64,000 bases of DNA, taken from assembly GCA_945957605.1 (NCBI GenBank), contig CAMFLR010000007.1:248001-312000 (forward strand), read 5' to 3'. Under the pieces are notes generated by a model. The model saw nothing but the letters and a program-made list of their open reading frames with translations. It was not told where the DNA came from and searched no databases. Both the position numbers and the translations under genes were made by a program. This DNA is from an uncultured Isosphaeraceae bacterium. GTDB taxonomy: Bacteria; Planctomycetota; Planctomycetia; Isosphaerales; Isosphaeraceae. Of this stretch, positions 4,790 to 14,229 are shown piece by piece. Numbering within the stretch: the first letter of the stretch is position 1; each line of letters opens with the position of its first letter.

Positions 4790-5593
4790 ATGACAGAAAC
4801 ACGCGAATCGCCAGTGGTCAAGGCGGCCGCTCGGGCTTATCGAGAAACGCGATTTTATTCCGACACATATGCAAGCGAGCCGACGACTCTATCAGAAGTC
4901 TCGTTCCTCTCGGGCGCCGACTTCCATCGCGCATCGGGGCTGCTTGATTGCGTGATCAATCGCGATGCCATCATCGGCATTTTGCCTCCATTTTCGCGTG
5001 ATGCAAGCCGGTTGCCGTTCGTCGTACCCGAGGACGAAGCCGAACTCGCACTCAGGCAAAGGCGCATCGTGCGAGCATTCGAAGACCTCGGAGTCGAATT
5101 CTCCGAAACTCCACGATTCGCGATCGTCGCCGACGACCGTCGCGGCCCGTTTGCTTGCGAAGTCGCCAAAGGGCTGTACTGGGAAGGACTGCAAACTTCG
5201 ATGATTCACCATAACGGTTCAACCGATGACCTGATTCGATCGGTCGATGAACTGAGGCCCGACTTCGTCGTACTGACCTGCGCACGCCATCTGCGAAATC
5301 GCCTGGAAAGGCCCAGAAAAACGGTCATCATCGCCGAACATTGCGGCGATTTTTCGATCGAAGATCTCGCATTTCCTGCGCTTCTTTATGCGGACGGAGC
5401 CGACCTCATTGGTTCTCGCGGGGCAGGACGACATTGGTACGACTTCGACAATGATCAGCTTTGGCTGGAGACCAATCCCCTAACGGGATTCTCACACGTC
5501 ACGAAGTCGCGAGCGTCGTGCCTCCCACTGGTTCGTTACAGCTTGGGGCGGCACGTTGCGACAGAACGCGAACCGGCGAGGGCACGGTCATGA
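4790..5593 (+). CDS. Degenerate PaaK-like (adenylate-forming) protein, function unknown
   Basis: 267 residues, ATG with GGAG about 10 nt upstream. It looks like a shortened relative of PaaK/coenzyme F390 synthetase-type enzymes: an N-terminal helical part, a middle alpha/beta section (FAIVADDRRGPFACEVAKGL; ELRPDFVVLTCARHL) and a C-terminal part whose strands (HWYDFDNDQLWLET, LPLVRYSLG) resemble the end of the adenylation core. The Ser/Gly/Thr P-loop and the YGxTE motif are absent, so catalysis is unlikely. Its stop overlaps the next start by four bases (ATGA at 5590-5593), so the two are translationally coupled and may form a pair in which this one is regulatory or binds substrate. Coding: confident. 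Family: tentative. Confidence 0.55.
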   Translation: MTETRESPVVKAAARAYRETRFYSDTYASEPTTLSEVSFLSGADFHRASGLLDCVINRDAIIGILPPFSRDASRLPFVVPEDEAELALRQRRIVRAFEDLGVEFSETPRFAIVADDRRGPFACEVAKGLYWEGLQTSMIHHNGSTDDLIRSVDELRPDFVVLTCARHLRNRLERPRKTVIIAEHCGDFSIEDLAFPALLYADGADLIGSRGAGRHWYDFDNDQLWLETNPLTGFSHVTKSRASCLPLVRYSLGRHVATEREPARARS

Positions 5594-6906
5594 CCGCCCA
5601 ATTCCAGCGTCATGACGACGGATTGGTAAGCCTCGTCGACACCAGCGAGCGTGCAGTCTCCCGGATGCGCGGGTTCTTCGGCATGTTGCATCGCGAGTTC
5701 CGATACTATCGCACCATCATGGATTGCACAGGAATTTCCCCCGAAGACTCGCCTGTTCGCACGCTGGGCAGATTTCCATCGACCACGCGCGATGAATATC
5801 GCGACTTTCTCCAGCCCGAGGCCCTCTCGCGGCTGTCGCGCAGCCGGTTCGTTTGCGACTACAGCTCGGGATCGACAGGTAAATGTGTCTTGCGCCTGGC
5901 AACACCTGCCGATGAACTCGCCGAGCAGGCGATCACCGAGCAAGTTTTTCACCGCGCCGGCATGAAACGTGGCGACCACTTCGTTTGCTGTGACGTCGGA
6001 TTTCCCGAGATTTACGACTTCTACTTTCGGGCTGCGCGAGCGCTCGGCGTCCGCCGGACAACGTATCTCCACCTGAATCGCGATTATGAACGGTCGCTTG
6101 AGCCAATCCTTCGTCTCGCGCCCGATGTCCTTCTCACGCTACCAAGTTTGCTCGCGCGGTTCTGGCCGCACATTCGATCACTTTGGCCAAAAGGCGAAGC
6201 ACCAATCCGCTCACTGATTTTCATGGGCGAACCAATGCAGCCTGGCTTTCGGCAAGAGGTCGCCGAAACACTGGGCTGTGGCGTCTTTTCGTTTTACGGC
6301 ACAACTGAATCGGGCGGGCTCGCTGGCGAGTGCGTCCGCGGCTGCGGCGGCCATTTCGACCCATCGCTGGTCGGCGTGACGATCGTGGAACCCCAATTCG
6401 TCGACGAGCAAACCGTTCAGGGTGAACTTTTACTGACGAGCTGGCATCTACGCGATAACCCCGTGGTGAAATACCGCGTCGGCGATATTGTGCGGGTGAC
6501 GATTCGTCCCTGCGCCTGTGGCGAGTCGACACCTCGGATCACGCTCGTCGAACGTACGCACGAAGGATTCGTGCTCGCCGGCCTCAAGCTACGGTACCAA
6601 ACAGTGCTCGAAGCGCTGAAACGCGTTACGGGAGAGTTGGATTTACTTACGATCACGCTGCGCGACCTGCCGGAAAGAGACGGGCACACGTTAATGCAAG
6701 TCGGCCTGCCTCGACGGTTCGAATCGTGGCAGCCACAATTGCTCGACGCGCTGCGTTTCGAGATATTCGAACTCGACGATCTTTACCAGTTTGGCCTCGT
6801 GCGATTCGAGCTGGACTTTTTTGACAACGACTCGCTCGAAATGCGAAAGCTTCGCCGCGTTGTCGATCTTCGCGTCTTGCCCGGTGCAGCATTGACCGAC
6901 GAATGA
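5590..6906 (+). CDS. PaaK-like adenylate-forming ligase
   Basis: 438 residues from the ATG that overlaps the upstream stop (ATGA). A longer frame upstream is ignored because it runs through the previous gene. It has the adenylation motifs: P-loop YSSGSTGK near residues 94-101, YGTTESGG near 237-244, and YRVGDIVRV near 294-302, followed by CACGESTPRI, which in PaaK/F390-synthetase relatives is a Cys-rich, often metal-binding segment. CVRGCGG adds further cysteines. Length matches the PaaK family (about 430). The expected chemistry is ATP-dependent activation of a carboxylic acid to an acyl-AMP and then a thioester or amide; the substrate cannot be read from sequence. It belongs to the 4790-9269 cassette. 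Confidence 0.75.
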   Translation: MTAQFQRHDDGLVSLVDTSERAVSRMRGFFGMLHREFRYYRTIMDCTGISPEDSPVRTLGRFPSTTRDEYRDFLQPEALSRLSRSRFVCDYSSGSTGKCVLRLATPADELAEQAITEQVFHRAGMKRGDHFVCCDVGFPEIYDFYFRAARALGVRRTTYLHLNRDYERSLEPILRLAPDVLLTLPSLLARFWPHIRSLWPKGEAPIRSLIFMGEPMQPGFRQEVAETLGCGVFSFYGTTESGGLAGECVRGCGGHFDPSLVGVTIVEPQFVDEQTVQGELLLTSWHLRDNPVVKYRVGDIVRVTIRPCACGESTPRITLVERTHEGFVLAGLKLRYQTVLEALKRVTGELDLLTITLRDLPERDGHTLMQVGLPRRFESWQPQLLDALRFEIFELDDLYQFGLVRFELDFFDNDSLEMRKLRRVVDLRVLPGAALTDE

Positions 6907-7102
6907 TTTGATTGTGCATCAATATTATGACGGTTCGAGCGAAGTAACGATTCAGACATCGAAGCCGCTTGAACCTGACCGGCTTTGCCTCTAGCGTATT
7001 TGCATCAAAGGGCGATGGCCCACGGCTGTTTCCCGCCGAGCCCGGGAGACTTTCCCCCATTTCGGCACGCTCTTGCGACTTGGCTCAGGCTGGAGATCAT
7101 CG

Positions 7103-7783
7103 GTGAGCACTTACTCGAAGAATTCGCCCGGCGAGCGCTTGACCTATCCTGCACGAAACCTCGACAAATACCGCGGCGAACAGTTCTGTCTCCGCATCAC
7201 ACCAGGGAACATCGACCTCGACCGGTGCTTCTTCGTCTATCTCGACGAGTTATACGAAGGGCTTTCCATACGTGAGCTTTTCTATACATACTTCGTCACG
7301 CCCAGATCAGACCGTGTGAAGGAAATGGACGCCTGGCTCGCCCCATGGCTCCGGCTCGACCCGATGTTGCCCAAGAAGTACATGCTGTTGCAGCAGATGG
7401 CTGGCCGCGTACTTTCGCAATCGGGAAAAGTTCTGTTCCACATCAACCACGGCCCGTGTCCGGTCAATCCCTCCGAGACCGTTCGCGACCATCTCGGCAC
7501 CAGCGTATTTTCCGATGGAAGCTTCGACGACAAGATCCTCGACATCGTTCTCGAATGCGACACAGGGATGAACTACTTTCCTGAGATGGTGCAGTGGTCG
7601 CATTTTTTCCCGACCAGCACAGCAGGAGTGAAAGGGCCAGGCGATGTTGTTAAACGCAGGACGTTCATGACACGCATGGTCGTGGCCGTCGTTGCGATCA
7701 TCACCGTTCCCTTCTTGCTTTTTAGCTGCAACTGGAACGATCCGAATCGCGGAGGAGGGGGCTTCAATGGAGGAATGCTCTAA
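7103..7783 (+). CDS. Unknown protein with C-terminal membrane anchor and Gly-rich tail
   Basis: 226 residues from a GTG preceded by GGAG 7 nt upstream; an upstream TTG is weaker. I do not recognise the family. The body is soluble with many aromatic residues (LYEGLSIRELFYTYF, VLFHINHGPCPVNPSE). Near the C-terminus a basic stretch (VVKRRTFMTRM) precedes one hydrophobic segment (VVAVVAIITVPFLLF) and a short Gly/Asn-rich tail ending GGGGFNGGML, the layout of a tail-anchored membrane protein. It starts 196 bp after the ligase and overlaps the next start by 17 bp, so it probably works with the downstream transglutaminase-like protein. An alternative is that the Gly-rich tail is a processed or modified peptide. 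Confidence 0.6.
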   Translation: MSTYSKNSPGERLTYPARNLDKYRGEQFCLRITPGNIDLDRCFFVYLDELYEGLSIRELFYTYFVTPRSDRVKEMDAWLAPWLRLDPMLPKKYMLLQQMAGRVLSQSGKVLFHINHGPCPVNPSETVRDHLGTSVFSDGSFDDKILDIVLECDTGMNYFPEMVQWSHFFPTSTAGVKGPGDVVKRRTFMTRMVVAVVAIITVPFLLFSCNWNDPNRGGGGFNGGML

Positions 7784-9269
7784 GCCGCTTCGTTCAATCG
7801 TGTGTACATTCAGTGATCCAGTGCGCGACGCTTCATTCGCGATTGATTATTCGTGCCAACACGGTGCGATGCCGACTGTACGCAACATGCTCGAACAATT
7901 TCGAGCCGCGAAGTCAGCGTTTGCCGGCGAGCAGGAATTAGAAATTGCACGATATGCGGATTCACTGTTTCTCTTGAGCGACGAAGGAGTTCTTGGCGAT
8001 CTTATTCCAAACCTACGGTTCCGCGTGCGGGGCCGCGAATGTAAGCTCGATGATTCGCTTCCTTGCAAGAACCTGAGCAATTCGATCGCGATTGAGATCG
8101 ACCGTTCTGAAACTGGGTATGTCCGCAACTGGCCTGCCTATCTCAAACGTCGCTGGAAGCTGCGTGAAGGAGCGTATTCGCAATTCGTTGAATCGATCAT
8201 TGACGAAGCTTACGGTTGCAATGCCGTAGAAGTGCTCGCCAGAAATAGCCCTTCGAATGCCTTGCGTTTTCTTTCGGCGGTCGCGCGTCGAATCTTTGAC
8301 GCTCCCTACGAAACCTACTCGCGATATCTCTCTCCGTTCGCGCCATTCAAAAGTTGCGATCAAACTCTCGACCGAATCATCTCCGGCGACGGCGGTAACT
8401 GCGCTGAGAAGGCAATGGCGTTGTATTTCGTCGTACATGCCTACGGGTTTCAGAGCGAAATCGTTCTTGGTGGCGAGGACGCGAGCGGCAGCTTTCCTTA
8501 TCACGCACTGCGGTCAATTCTGAACAGTCACGCGTTCGACTTCGCAGGCACGCGCGACGTGCAACGCTACTGGCAGCACTTCAGCTTGCTTTGTACTCCA
8601 TCAAATATCGAGTGTGGTCCAATCTTCTGCGACGTCGCTGGATCAAACCTGCCGTTTTTCTGCACACCCGCCGATGATGTCACTCATCTACTTCGCTCAG
8701 GCGATAAGGAAGCCATTGACGTCGCGATCACGCTCGAACCGTTACGAGTTTTCTATCACGCTTTGCCGCATCGCCAGGACTTGCCACTCGACCTCTACTA
8801 CGCGATGGAATCATTGATCGATTCAATTGACGTCGTTCAAACGTTCGATAATGAGCTCGGTTTGTTGCACACTGGTGACTACTGGATCGGCGCTTTCGCC
8901 TATCGAAGTCGTCGAGAACTCGCGAAAATCAAGGCCGCATACAAACAGTTCGTTGCAGGTGCGGGACGCAACGAAGACCGCGATCTTTGCTTTGTCGCCG
9001 ACCTGCACGACATCAAGCACACACTTCACGAAGAATTTGTTCGGAACTATCCCCGCGGTGCCAGTCAAATCAGCGCCGCAGATAAACGTATACGCGCAAG
9101 AATTCGCCGAATCGACCGACGCAACTCTGTTTGCTACGTCATCCTTAAACTCGCATCGTCCAGTTCTCCAATTCAACCGCGCATTTGCGAACCAATTCAT
9201 TTCTCAGGCTCAATCGCTCCCGCTTCCGTTCCAATATCCAATCGGCCACTCTCAGCAGTGCCTCGATGA
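7767..9269 (+). CDS. Transglutaminase-like (papain-fold) protein, tentative
   Basis: 500 residues from the ATG at 7767, which has a strong GGAGGAGGGG Shine-Dalgarno ending 6 nt before it, inside the end of the previous gene. No signal peptide. The centre carries GDGGNCAEKAMALYFVVHAYG followed by an EIVLGG strand, then FPYHALRS. This has the shape of the transglutaminase-like Cys...His fold: Cys at the start of a helix followed by (V/I)LGG, with His downstream. The third catalytic residue is not obvious. The coding end overlaps the convergent gene by 73 bp. Next to an acyl-activating enzyme, a role in amide formation or hydrolysis is possible but inferred. Otherwise unknown. Confidence 0.5.
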   Translation: MEECSKPLRSIVCTFSDPVRDASFAIDYSCQHGAMPTVRNMLEQFRAAKSAFAGEQELEIARYADSLFLLSDEGVLGDLIPNLRFRVRGRECKLDDSLPCKNLSNSIAIEIDRSETGYVRNWPAYLKRRWKLREGAYSQFVESIIDEAYGCNAVEVLARNSPSNALRFLSAVARRIFDAPYETYSRYLSPFAPFKSCDQTLDRIISGDGGNCAEKAMALYFVVHAYGFQSEIVLGGEDASGSFPYHALRSILNSHAFDFAGTRDVQRYWQHFSLLCTPSNIECGPIFCDVAGSNLPFFCTPADDVTHLLRSGDKEAIDVAITLEPLRVFYHALPHRQDLPLDLYYAMESLIDSIDVVQTFDNELGLLHTGDYWIGAFAYRSRRELAKIKAAYKQFVAGAGRNEDRDLCFVADLHDIKHTLHEEFVRNYPRGASQISAADKRIRARIRRIDRRNSVCYVILKLASSSSPIQPRICEPIHFSGSIAPASVPISNRPLSAVPR

Positions 9270-12200
9270 GCCGAGAGCAGGAACGCGACGAGATCGGCCA
9301 GTTCTTGATGGCTCAATTTCGCCACGAGTCCTTCTGGCATGAGCGATTTGCTCGTGCTGGAGAGCTCATCAATCTGGCTTCGCAGAATCGTGTCTTCCGC
9401 GCCTTCTGCGCGACGAAGCGTCATTGACGACGGCGTCTCCGAGACGATCAGCCCGGAATACACGCGCCCGCTTCGGTCGCTGACGATGTATTGCACATAA
9501 TTCGGCGGCACAAATCGGTTCGGTTCGACGATGTGCGTCAGTAGCGCATCAGACTCACGAAACTGAGTCGCGCTCAAATCTGGCCCGACGGAATATCCCA
9601 CGTTTCCGACACGATGGCACGTTGCACATAGTTTTCCAAACACTTCGCCTCCGCGTTTGGCGTCTCCTTTCAATTTCAATGCGGGACTGTACGACACCAT
9701 TAAGTCAGTCGCTTGCGATGAACCCGTACCAGGCCCGGTGAACAGTTTTTTTGCTATCGCGGCGATTTCTGCATTCTTGTGTTTCGCGAGCGCCGGCCGA
9801 CGGGTCAATTCGATCTCCCCGACATCAATTCGACCGTCCTTCAAGGCTTGAAGCAGCACGAGCGTCCAGCTCTCGCGAGACAACAAGACGTCAATCGCCT
9901 CGACACGAACCACTGGCGCCATGGAACGATTTCGCTCGAGCAAAAGCGACGCGATTTCAGGCTCGCCATATCCAGAGAACGCGCGCAACGCCGCCAGTTG
10001 CAAACGTTGCGAATACTTCGGATCAAGCAGTGCTGAGAGAACATTCCGCGAACGCTCGAAAGGTGCGCATCCCATGATCGCGATTGCCTGAAGTCGCGTT
10101 GCTTCGCCCAATTTCTCATCGACAGACTCGGCAGCGGCGCGATCGAGTGTTTGCGAAATCAGTCGTCCCGACGGCGTTTGTGATCCATCCGCGAGAGAAA
10201 AGTGCCCCCCAGATCGGCTCATACCGCGACCGATCGCGAGCACTAAGCGCCTAACAAAGGGCTGCGGTTGCGACTCGCCAGCCAGGATTTCAAGAGCTCG
10301 GGCGACCTCGTCACGACGATTTCGCGCTCCAAGAACCTCGGCGAGTTGATCGAGAAACGCTGCTCCCGTTTCACTCGAGCGAAATGTTTCGGAGTGAGCA
10401 AGTCGCGCGAATAGCGCATCGGGCATGTTCCCCGCTGAGGCAAGAACCGCAATTCGCGTCCAGGAGTCGTTTGCATCTCGCTCAGCAATTCGTGCCAGTG
10501 CTTCGACAGCGAGGGGATTGCGAGTCGCTCCCAGGCTGAGCGCCACCTGAAATCGAACGCGCAGTTCATCGTGCGATGCGAGCCCAGCAATCTTTTCCAC
10601 CAAGTTCGGCAACGTTTCGAGCCGGGGTTCTGCAAGGCGTACCGTATGCTCGACAACATGCGGTGACCTGTCCGAAAGGCTCTTGACCAGCGTTTCATCG
10701 GAGAGTGCCTTCTGGCCATGCAGAGACCAAAGCGCATGAATACGGCTCACATCGCTTTTCGCCCCGCTGGCCAAGGAATTCAGCCGTTCGATCGCCGTGG
10801 CATCTTGCCGTTCAAAGAGCAAACGATGCGCGGTGTCGCGCCACCATCCGTCGGGATGTTCGAGCATCGAAACAAGCTCGGTGGTCGTCGCCTTGCTCAG
10901 TTGGGGCGACTTTTTTCGTGAGAACCCATCGGGTGCTATGCGGTAAATTCGTCCCTGGTCGCGTCCGCGCCGGAGGTCGAGATGCTTCACGACATCAAGC
11001 GGAATGTGAATCGCCTCGATCACCTCGCGGCTCATGTCGAGGGCGTAGAGCGTGCCGTCCGGGGCGTTAATGAGATTCACCGGACGGAACCAGTTGTCCG
11101 ATGACCTTACGAACTCTTTATCGCCATCGACGGTCGCGGCTTTGAATGTCGGCCCCGTGGGCGTGAGCTTCATTCGATGGATCAAATTGTTTTGTGCATC
11201 ACCGACAAACGCATCGCCACGGAACGATTCGGGATATGCGGTGCCCCGATAGATCGTCACTCCGGCAGCCGCGTCGATGACGTGATGGCTTGCGCCTGCG
11301 GAATCGGCCGAGCGTTCGCCGTGAGCGATGCGGCGGCTCGATCGGATCTGTCGCCAACGCTCCAGCGGGCTGATGCGATGAATCGGCTCAGGGGCATTTG
11401 CGACGTTAGCGATCGCCTGTGACACCGGCAGAAACGGATTTCTCGCCAGATTTTCCATCGGCAGCACGGCATGAAGTAGCGGTCGCGACTCGCTGCACAG
11501 AAATCGATTGCCATAATCATCGAACGTTGTGCCAAACTGCACGGTTCCCGTAATTGCTTCGAATTCGAGAGTCTCGGGATCGAACCGAAAGTCGGCATGT
11601 TCGACGTCAATCACCGGCGCGTTTGGAAGGTCGACGCGATGAACTTTGCCGCCGTTTGTCGACGATGAGCCATAGATCTTGTGATCAAGTCCAAACGTGA
11701 GGTTGTTTACACCACCTTGCTCGTTGTTCGTGCCAAACCCTGTAAATACCTTGCGACGCACGTCGGTGATGTGATCGCCGTTGGTGTCCTTGAAATACCA
11801 AATATCGGGCGGTGCGGCGACGAAAACGCCGCCCTTCCATGGCGCCACGCCCGTCGGCCACATCAGCTTGTCGGCGACAATATCACTCGTATCAAACTCT
11901 CCATCGCCGTCGGTATCGCGCAGTCGTCGCACCGCGCCAAGAGGCTCGCTGCCGGGACGCGGCTTATACGGATAATCAATCATTTCCGCGACGTACAGGC
12001 TTCCATCTTCGTCAAACGCTGCTGCGACGGGACTGTGGACGAGCGGTTCGCTCGCAACGAGTTCCAGGTGAAAGCCAGGGAGCGTTTCAAATGTTTTTAG
12101 AGCCTCGGAAGGCGTAAGCGCAGGCAAAGGCTTGAGGAACACCTTCAATTGCTCGTCGTCGTGAGCTTTTTTCGTGGGATCAAAGGCCTCGGCATCCTCG

Positions 12201-13912
12201 GCAAGCCAAGTTGGCGGCACGCCGGCCGCGGGCAAACCTCCGGACGAACGGATCTTGAGAAGAATGTCGCGCGACTTTTGAAAGTAGTCGAGTAGCTTCG
12301 CCTTCTCGGCGAACTTGCGCGCGCGATTCTTCGCCATTTGCTCATCGAGCTTGGCGATCAAGCGATCGACACTCGCGCGATCGTAGGGCGCTTTTCCATC
12401 GAGATCGACAAACACTGGGTTCGAATGCGATTCCGCATCCGGCGCCCCCAACTTCGTCTTGCCGAACGCACGAGCAGCAATCCAAGATGATTCGTTCAGC
12501 TCAATACGCGTGTCAAACGTGTACCATTCGCGAACGGCCCCACCCGACGGCGTCTTGGATTCGGCGACAACTCGCCCATTAACGATGATTTGCACTGTCT
12601 CAACCGGCGCGACTGGCGAAAGCACGCGCACCGAAATCTTTTGCGAAGATTTCTCCGTCAGCGCAATTCGATCACCTGGCTTTCTGCCATCCACCTCGAG
12701 CAGCAAAATCGGTCCCGTGGTGACGAAACTTCGTCCGTTTCCGGCCCGCTTCAGCCAATCCGCTGGGCCGTCGCCTTTCGGATCACGTTCAACGTACGTC
12801 ACACAGTCGCCCAGCTTGCGGCATGCAGGAAAATCACTTGCTCCCACGCACGGCAGGCGGAATCCGGCGTTCAAGAAAGCGTACCAATCGGCAAGTTCGA
12901 TACCGCGGTAAACACCGAACTGAAGCAACTCAACCGCGTCGATGTCGCCCTGAACAGCGTTGGCGTAAATCTCCTGCGCATAGCCGCCATGGGCGTGAAT
13001 CGCGAATCCACCCTTCCTGCGCGTCTCTCGGCCGACTAACCCGAAGGCCGGCCAGTCGTTTGCATTGTAGTTCTGGCCCTCGTTGACGAGATCGTCGCGA
13101 AAATACAGGTTGAGATGACCATAAGTTGAGCTACGATACTCCTGGCCAGAAGCGAGATGATAGCCACCGCGCGAAGCGACTGAACCCTTGCCAAGCCCCT
13201 GAAGCTGAGGATATTCAAGCGACGCTCGCACTGCGTTGTAAGGGCCGGGAGGGTCGTTGTATCCCAGAGTGAAGCCGTAGCGAATGTCCTCGGCGGCAAG
13301 AAGCGTGAAGATCGCATCGTCGTCGGCTGGGTTTGTGCGCGGAAAATGGAGATGTGTATCACCTGAATCGTAGCCAATTTGCTGTGGCGTGGTGGCACGC
13401 GTGAGTGAAATGCTCACGCGGCGAGTCTGACCCGCTTCGATGGCGACCGTCTCGACCAACGGCTGGTACTCGAATCCTTTCCAGGCTTCGATGCGAATCT
13501 TTCCTTTAGGGACATCAATGAGAGTAGTTCCCGGTGAATAGAAGAACCGGCCGAAGTAGCGGAACGGCGCCTTTCCCGTGCGGTTTCCTTTGCCGTGCTT
13601 CGGCCATTCACCGGTAAGGCTATAGAGCGAAAGTGAGTTCTCGGCCGGCTGATAGAAGTTGCCGTCCGGTCCCACGACGTTCACACGGCAAGGTGTGGGT
13701 TTGCCGGTCGACGAGTCGAGCACGACGATTTCAAGGTGACCCGCGTCTGCACCCGCCGCCTTCAAAGCCGATCCGGGATGATCGAATCCAAGGGGCGTGA
13801 AGATAAGCGATTCATCGTCCCCGCGAACAATGCCGCCTGCCGAACCAACTAGCCCAAAGAGCAACACCAAGAGCGCGAGAAGGCTGCGGATTCGACCGGC
13901 GTTGGTTGGCAT
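9197..13912 (-). CDS. CehA/McbA metallohydrolase - PVC dehydrogenase - cytochrome c fusion
   Basis: 1571 residues from the ATG at 13912, chosen because a signal peptide follows at once (RIRSLLALLVLLFGLVGSAGG); a start at 14011 would add 33 unconvincing residues. Order: (a) about residues 55-170, a beta-rich carboxypeptidase-regulatory-like part; (b) about 180-500, a CehA/McbA PHP-type metallohydrolase with SGDTHLHFPR (185-189), HAHGG (306-308) and VGASDFP; (c) about 590-1000, the PVC-group membrane-bound dehydrogenase propeller (VAEMIDYPY, FVAAPPDIWYF, FTGFGTNNEQGGVNNL); (d) HEAT-like repeats; (e) a C-terminal heme domain with CATCH near residue 1429 and VGPDLS. Dehydrogenase plus heme is a standard planctomycete layout; the N-terminal metallohydrolase is unusual. 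Exported, probably redox-active; substrate unknown. Confidence 0.85.
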   Translation of the reverse strand: MPTNAGRIRSLLALLVLLFGLVGSAGGIVRGDDESLIFTPLGFDHPGSALKAAGADAGHLEIVVLDSSTGKPTPCRVNVVGPDGNFYQPAENSLSLYSLTGEWPKHGKGNRTGKAPFRYFGRFFYSPGTTLIDVPKGKIRIEAWKGFEYQPLVETVAIEAGQTRRVSISLTRATTPQQIGYDSGDTHLHFPRTNPADDDAIFTLLAAEDIRYGFTLGYNDPPGPYNAVRASLEYPQLQGLGKGSVASRGGYHLASGQEYRSSTYGHLNLYFRDDLVNEGQNYNANDWPAFGLVGRETRRKGGFAIHAHGGYAQEIYANAVQGDIDAVELLQFGVYRGIELADWYAFLNAGFRLPCVGASDFPACRKLGDCVTYVERDPKGDGPADWLKRAGNGRSFVTTGPILLLEVDGRKPGDRIALTEKSSQKISVRVLSPVAPVETVQIIVNGRVVAESKTPSGGAVREWYTFDTRIELNESSWIAARAFGKTKLGAPDAESHSNPVFVDLDGKAPYDRASVDRLIAKLDEQMAKNRARKFAEKAKLLDYFQKSRDILLKIRSSGGLPAAGVPPTWLAEDAEAFDPTKKAHDDEQLKVFLKPLPALTPSEALKTFETLPGFHLELVASEPLVHSPVAAAFDEDGSLYVAEMIDYPYKPRPGSEPLGAVRRLRDTDGDGEFDTSDIVADKLMWPTGVAPWKGGVFVAAPPDIWYFKDTNGDHITDVRRKVFTGFGTNNEQGGVNNLTFGLDHKIYGSSSTNGGKVHRVDLPNAPVIDVEHADFRFDPETLEFEAITGTVQFGTTFDDYGNRFLCSESRPLLHAVLPMENLARNPFLPVSQAIANVANAPEPIHRISPLERWRQIRSSRRIAHGERSADSAGASHHVIDAAAGVTIYRGTAYPESFRGDAFVGDAQNNLIHRMKLTPTGPTFKAATVDGDKEFVRSSDNWFRPVNLINAPDGTLYALDMSREVIEAIHIPLDVVKHLDLRRGRDQGRIYRIAPDGFSRKKSPQLSKATTTELVSMLEHPDGWWRDTAHRLLFERQDATAIERLNSLASGAKSDVSRIHALWSLHGQKALSDETLVKSLSDRSPHVVEHTVRLAEPRLETLPNLVEKIAGLASHDELRVRFQVALSLGATRNPLAVEALARIAERDANDSWTRIAVLASAGNMPDALFARLAHSETFRSSETGAAFLDQLAEVLGARNRRDEVARALEILAGESQPQPFVRRLVLAIGRGMSRSGGHFSLADGSQTPSGRLISQTLDRAAAESVDEKLGEATRLQAIAIMGCAPFERSRNVLSALLDPKYSQRLQLAALRAFSGYGEPEIASLLLERNRSMAPVVRVEAIDVLLSRESWTLVLLQALKDGRIDVGEIELTRRPALAKHKNAEIAAIAKKLFTGPGTGSSQATDLMVSYSPALKLKGDAKRGGEVFGKLCATCHRVGNVGYSVGPDLSATQFRESDALLTHIVEPNRFVPPNYVQYIVSDRSGRVYSGLIVSETPSSMTLRRAEGAEDTILRSQIDELSSTSKSLMPEGLVAKLSHQELADLVAFLLSAHRGTAESGRLDIGTEAGAIEPEK

Positions 13913-14229
13913 GGCATTACTTTGGGTTGGATCGCTGTGAGGATTCGTCAATGCGCTGCTTTCATTAGGCGGGCGGGATTCTTTTTTATCACGCGCGCGA
14001 ACCGACGTCATTAGTGCCGTCGATCAATCGAGCAGATTGATGGGAAGAAAAGTAAACGAATGAGGCAGTGAAAGAGTAAGTAAGAATGCAATGCGAATGT
14101 CTACCTCATCCCTTCCGTTTCTTCATCGAGAATTCACAGTCCTCGGGAAGCGGAACACGGACCGATGGGATAGACTCTGCGAAACTTGAATTCCCTCGCG
14201 CGGCCCACGGCAAAAGGAAACCCTCAGAA

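Follow-up and report, generated by a model that had tools for sequence, protein, structure and literature searches.

What might four adjacent planctomycete genes achieve together, when they encode an acid-activating enzyme, an inactive relative of it, a membrane protein and a putative cysteine enzyme? The question is raised by positions 4790-9269 of a 64,000-nucleotide stretch of DNA (the window) from an uncultured Isosphaeraceae bacterium (assembly GCA_945957605.1, contig CAMFLR010000007.1, positions 248,001 to 312,000 of the forward strand). Tentatively, and as a possibility that we rate somewhat short of an even chance, we read this cassette as an operon whose four genes serve membrane-tethered acyl activation and the formation or cleavage of amides. 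All four genes lie on the + strand. Gene 1 (4790-5593) encodes a PaaK-like pseudo-ligase of 267 residues, gene 2 (5590-6906) an intact PaaK-like adenylating (ANL) enzyme of 438 residues, gene 3 (7103-7783) a 226-residue protein with a putative cytosolic domain, one membrane helix and a Gly-rich tail, and gene 4 (7767-9269) a 500-residue protein in which a predicted ubiquitin-like domain precedes a transglutaminase-like cysteine enzyme. The original prediction had described four + strand genes, the first two overlapping by ATGA and the last two by 17 bp, and both the coordinates and the overlaps were confirmed; a gap of 196 bp lies between genes 2 and 3. For gene 3 a GTG start was taken, the mechanical open reading frame opening further upstream at TTG. 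Promoter and terminator scans gave signals no stronger than those in shuffled sequences.

Close relatives of gene 3, sought in 84,980 species genomes, were found at four loci: in the Planctomycetota metagenome-assembled genome (MAG) RYN_438 (L009), the Planctomycetaceae MAG CP_BE_RX_R3_1 (L010), Singulisphaera sp. GP187 (L011) and a Singulisphaera MAG (L012). The original prediction had asked whether the genes stay together in other planctomycetes; the gene order is identical at all four loci, the L009 contig stopping within gene 1. Protein identity to the window copy is about 55-59% for gene 1, 69-73% for gene 2, 52-61% for gene 3 and 53-56% for gene 4, and purifying selection acts on each of the four. 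No flanking genes are common to the copies. We favour the operon reading in part because five genomes keep the whole set together between unrelated flanks. The opposite reading, of unrelated neighbours with gene 1 in decay, would account for the loss of catalytic motifs from gene 1; it is hardly credible, as the conserved order and the conservation of the genes themselves contradict it. Gene 1 has no internal stops, and its ratio of non-synonymous to synonymous substitution (dN/dS) is ~0.2 between the closer copies, which indicates that it has been retained for use.

Gene 2 carries the motifs expected of an active enzyme. The P-loop YSSGSTGK (residues 91-98, 5860-5883) and the motif YGTTESGG (residues 236-243, 6295-6318), which the original prediction had named for its PaaK-like ligase, are both in place; SSGSTG is kept in four of the five copies (L012 has SSGSTD), while YGTTE is invariant in all of them. 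The downstream Asp is D299, within a YRVGD segment, and K420 (in RKxRRVxD, 6847-6849), invariant in 5/5 copies, is by analogy with ANL enzymes a candidate for the catalytic C-terminal lysine. A profile comparison with the PaaK structures 2y4o and 4r1l in the PDB gave an E-value of 1e-16. Against NCBIfam NF045666 (DVU_1553 family AMP-dependent CoA ligase) gene 2 scored 81.2 bits, under the curated cut-off of 300 bits, and every curated family score was far under its cut-off. With P-loop, YGxTE, Asp and C-terminal Lys all present, its sequence places gene 2 among the PaaK-like ANL adenylating enzymes, and that it keeps the ATP-binding motifs and the C-terminal lysine is a further reason to favour acyl activation.

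The coupled partner had been proposed to share this fold and to have lost the P-loop, and this proved correct. Over its full length gene 1 matches a PaaK-like profile of about 30 diverse proteins, mostly collected in a phylum-wide search (hhalign probability 94-95; P 2e-7 in local and 8e-9 in global mode), with a score of 55.8 compared to 27.6 for the best of 100 column shuffles; genes 3 and 4 did not match the same profile. The relationship emerged only with the diverse PaaK set, a direct hhalign comparison of genes 1 and 2, each represented by 4-5 close sequences, giving no support. The positions of both the P-loop and the YGxTE motif are replaced in gene 1, which ends ahead of the C-terminal lid domain. 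Judged from these alignments, gene 1 is a remote, shortened PaaK-like homologue and a conserved pseudoenzyme; its membership of the same family and its ATGA coupling to gene 2 also speak for the operon reading. Weak gene 1 matches to short stretches in other genomes (E 0.007-0.1) were judged to be due to chance, and a tRNA call within the L011 gene 1 was judged false.

For gene 4, the proposed Cys...His pattern of the transglutaminase-like fold was recovered and extended to a Cys-His-Asp set, C212 (8400-8402), H271 (8577-8579) and D289 (8631-8633), which is invariant across the copies. These residues lie in a core of residues 130-330 (8154-8756). When the Cys region was aligned with transglutaminase cores by hhalign, a P-value of 1e-4 and a score of 34.3 were obtained, compared to a maximum of 22.8 in 100 shuffles. 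Matches to PF01841 were sub-threshold (best E 0.058) and appeared in only three of the five members. In structure comparison, the core aligned with the NAT fold of the transglutaminase/NAT superfamily over 137 residues (Z 8.2, 4.1 Å), and the N-terminal residues 10-117 aligned by VIA-align with SAMP1 over 82 residues (Z 8.0, 2.9 Å); both Z values are middling. At the sequence level, NAT (PF00797) gained no support as the family closest to gene 4, its profile score falling inside the shuffle range. Weak but above-shuffle core homology, together with the Cys-His-Asp set, indicates that the core belongs to the transglutaminase-like superfamily.

The domain ahead of this core, residues 7-117 (7785-8117), is predicted by the structure model to be a beta-grasp, ubiquitin-like domain. 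The Foldseek list for it consists mainly of ubiquitin/SUMO family members with marginal E-values, and a sequence-profile search against Pfam gave no support. The AlphaFold model of gene 4 has a mean predicted local distance difference test (pLDDT) score of 58, the N-terminal stretch being better (blocks mostly 61-83). The invariant triad, the alignment of the Cys region with transglutaminase cores and the ubiquitin-like character of the N-terminal domain are together another reason for the operon reading. A role in lasso-peptide maturation received no support: the B2 leader peptidase family (PF13471) scored 12.5 bits with a cut-off of 26, and no asparagine-synthase-like product, as in a lasso cyclase, is found among the four cassette products. 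A weak gene 4 match in another genome (G380), the sixth match in the search of the class, runs antisense to a sulfatase-like gene and was rejected as spurious.

Gene 3 matched no family in the libraries searched. As had been claimed, it ends with one membrane helix and a Gly/Asn-rich tail, and both were seen in all five copies. The helix (7676-7729) is the single C-terminal hydrophobic stretch, with a 19-residue hydropathy of 2.2-2.5 in 5/5 copies. It is closed by L-[FY]-S-C, in the window copy the lipobox-like LLFSC ending at C209. The tail (7730-7780) finishes in GFxGGML, which is invariant in the five copies and so answers the question, raised in the original prediction, of whether the tail is conserved. 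Basic residues mostly precede the helix in 4/5 copies, L011 being the exception, and the tail is therefore probably extracytosolic and the main domain cytosolic; this arrangement, with its single C-terminal helix, likewise favours membrane tethering. Ahead of the helix, residues 29-155 (7187-7567) possibly form a ubiquitin-like, beta-grasp region, which we take as a lead from a poor model (mean pLDDT 50). The structural matches of this model are mostly ubiquitin-like proteins, the best by VIA-align being an EccD5 domain (Z 4.3, 3.5 Å, 78 residues). Pfam searches with the gene 3 and gene 4 domains taken singly returned nothing relevant, and a profile comparison of gene 3 with gene 4 gave no support for a match.

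The DNA of the gene 3 tail doubles as the translated start of gene 4, which could make the Gly-rich end a by-product of the overlap. Within the last eight gene 3 codons, one variable codon excepted, three sites vary among the five copies, and all three are silent in the gene 3 frame and amino-acid-changing in the gene 4 frame. Although the sites are few, this pattern favours selection on the tail for its role in gene 3. A ribosome-binding-site origin of the tail was rejected as well: in the relatives the gene 4 start codon (ATG or GTG) falls within the tail of gene 3, upstream of GGAGG, and variation that is silent for gene 3 but not for gene 4 contradicts it too.

The end of gene 3 could also be read as a lipopeptide precursor, in which the helix would act as a lipoprotein signal, Cys209 would be lipidated and a tail of 15-23 residues would be released; the products of genes 1, 2 and 4 would be the modifying enzymes. 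The PROSITE-type lipobox pattern is present at the helix end in 5/5 gene 3 products, basic residues placed mostly before the helix give the order of a lipoprotein signal, and the short C-terminal segment, Gly/Asn-rich in all five copies, begins at the Cys. Known lipoprotein signals are N-terminal, however, whereas this Cys is residue 209 of 226 and lies near the C-terminus. Phe or Tyr at position -2 is moreover a less common lipobox form, and the cassette includes no exporter or maturation gene. Hence we regard a lipopeptide precursor as decidedly improbable.

In the operon that we prefer, gene 2 as the catalytic enzyme and gene 1 as its inactive partner, probably as a heterodimer, would adenylate a carboxylic acid, with transfer to CoA as an option. 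The C-terminal helix would anchor gene 3 in the membrane and leave its main domain on the cytosolic side, where it may serve as a docking partner or as the target of modification. The ubiquitin-like domain would recruit gene 4, and Cys212-His271-Asp289 would take the activated acyl group and make an amide on gene 3 or a bound partner; alternatively, gene 4 may cleave an amide there. The data show the make-up of the cassette, the families of genes 1, 2 and 4, the conservation and the patchy distribution; we infer the heterodimer, the order of these steps, the substrate, the direction of the amide reaction and the topology of gene 3. Such a module may belong to a modification or small-molecule pathway, as had been suggested. 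Of that earlier interpretation, the kinship of gene 1 with adenylating enzymes, the Cys-His(-Asp) set of gene 4 and the conserved neighbourhood stood, so that neither outcome named there as refuting was observed, while the ubiquitin-like domain of gene 4, the lipobox-like LLFSC of gene 3 and the use of the tail as the start of gene 4 had been overlooked.

Several observations weigh against this proposal. No gene for a substrate, carrier or amine acceptor was found near the cassette. The transglutaminase match of gene 4 is weak and leaves transfer and cleavage indistinguishable, the fold of gene 3 is uncertain, and the mean confidence of both structure models is low. In L011, the charges flanking the gene 3 helix disfavour an N-in orientation. 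The same components could also be arranged as membrane-bound ubiquitin-like conjugation or processing, with the PaaK-type ANL enzyme and its pseudoenzyme in the place of an E1 and gene 4 in that of the conjugating or deconjugating enzyme. This would amount to a ubiquitin-like system without an E1, and we consider it very improbable.

The cassette is patchily distributed. A whole-genome search found it in 5 of the 45 genomes of the family and in none of the remaining genomes of the class (~390 searched), and it is absent from congeners of three carriers. Between L009 and L010 the synonymous divergence (dS) of the cassette is 0.12-0.22, and between either of them and L011 0.26-0.36, while recA dS for the same pairs is 0.73-0.92; the window copy differs from the others at least as much as recA does. 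The values well below those of recA suggest that the cassette moved between genera, or that the L009 and L010 MAG contigs were misbinned. A separate contig of the L009 MAG (G019 contig C127; L030) holds a second gene 1 and a partial gene 2 with 87% DNA identity to L009, which may be a paralogue, a strain mixture or misbinning. In the plasmids and viral contigs searched there were no relatives of gene 4, and in the phages searched none of gene 3.

This distribution and a cassette dS about 2-6 times below that of recA between some genera would fit an accessory, mobile set, and thus also a module for conflict or defence whose ubiquitin-like/transglutaminase-like enzyme would be activated via the membrane protein. 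One copy in fact adjoins a gene for an HNH nuclease similar to the PtuB protein of Septu. Against this, the four products gave a single, chance-level match to the PADLOC models, the cassette contains neither a nuclease nor a known effector, and no defence family turned up in a scan of the genes flanking the copies in the window and in L011; a defence module thus seems unlikely to us. The nuclease (PADLOC E 1e-10) lies upstream of the Singulisphaera MAG copy (L025:4858-6304), together with a 282-residue protein without a Pfam family. The L011 copy adjoins a gene for a mechanosensitive-channel protein. The window copy is flanked on one side by a minus-strand gene (window:983-4312) for a 1109-residue protein that carries RTX-type calcium-binding repeats in addition to PKD domains, and on the other by a minus-strand DUF7133/cytochrome c gene (9197-14011), into which the 3' end of gene 4 runs for 73 bp, tail to tail (window:9197-9269). 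Elsewhere in the phylum, a PaaK-like match lies within a 785-residue open frame (L043), and a fused PaaK-like protein may therefore exist in that genome (G421).

Were the membrane-tethered operon correct, it would represent a small, self-contained acyl-transfer or protein-modification module, seemingly mobile among planctomycetes, and open to bench work since the named strain Singulisphaera sp. GP187 has one copy in its assembly. The cassette as a whole fits none of the systems tested: as in the original prediction, its union of an acid-activating enzyme and an inactive twin with a membrane protein and a ubiquitin-like/transglutaminase-like enzyme matched no named system, and literature searches found no paper describing it. 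Gene 2 shares the P-loop, YGTTE, downstream Asp and C-terminal lysine with PaaK (phenylacetate-CoA ligase) and PaaK-like ANL enzymes, but is paired with an inactive homologue and scores under the curated cut-offs. With the transglutaminase core PF01841, gene 4 shares G-N-C-A-E-x-A ... G-[IFL]-x-x-E-[VIM]-V-L-G-G and the invariant Cys, His and Asp, but its core follows a ubiquitin-like domain and is in turn followed by ~150 residues without a known family. Gene 3 weakly resembles EccD/YukD of type VII secretion in fold and in having a ubiquitin-like domain ahead of the membrane part, but differs in its single helix and its tail, and the cassette has no further type VII genes. Sorting by GlyGly-CTERM/rhombosortase was rejected, since that signal runs from a Gly-rich motif through a hydrophobic helix to basic residues (PMC6219818), whereas gene 3 has the reverse order. 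The E1 and E2 proteins of prokaryotic ubiquitin-like conjugation are not among the four products, and a search limited to these products found no E1-like (ThiF/MoeB) or JAB peptidase family at E-values up to 1.

The closest worked example is provided by the PDTC and thioquinolobactin operons, with an AMP ligase, a ubiquitin-like carrier whose Gly-Gly (GG) end is capped, and a peptidase (PMC1779556; PMC6006322). By analogy, the cassette could be a capped carrier system of the thiocarboxylate type, in which gene 3 would be the carrier with its GG capped by Met-Leu, gene 4 would uncap it, and gene 2 would activate a small-molecule carboxylate for the transfer of sulfur or the carrier to it. The GGML end is invariant in gene 3, the PDTC/quinolobactin operons pair the same three activities (PMC1779556), and known capped carriers (e.g. 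GG-MV) require a protease to expose the GG (PMC6006322). We nevertheless judge this reading unlikely, as the beta-grasp fold of gene 3 is based on a poor model and its GG lies past the membrane helix, probably outside the cytosol, where neither ATP nor the soluble enzymes would be at hand. The cassette resembles these operons in its AMP-forming ligase, in a protein whose C-terminus is GG followed by two more residues, and in a possible processing peptidase; it differs in that E1-like enzyme, rhodanese and JAB peptidase are missing from the four products, which also counts against the carrier reading, a cysteine enzyme is present instead, and the carrier candidate is membrane-anchored.

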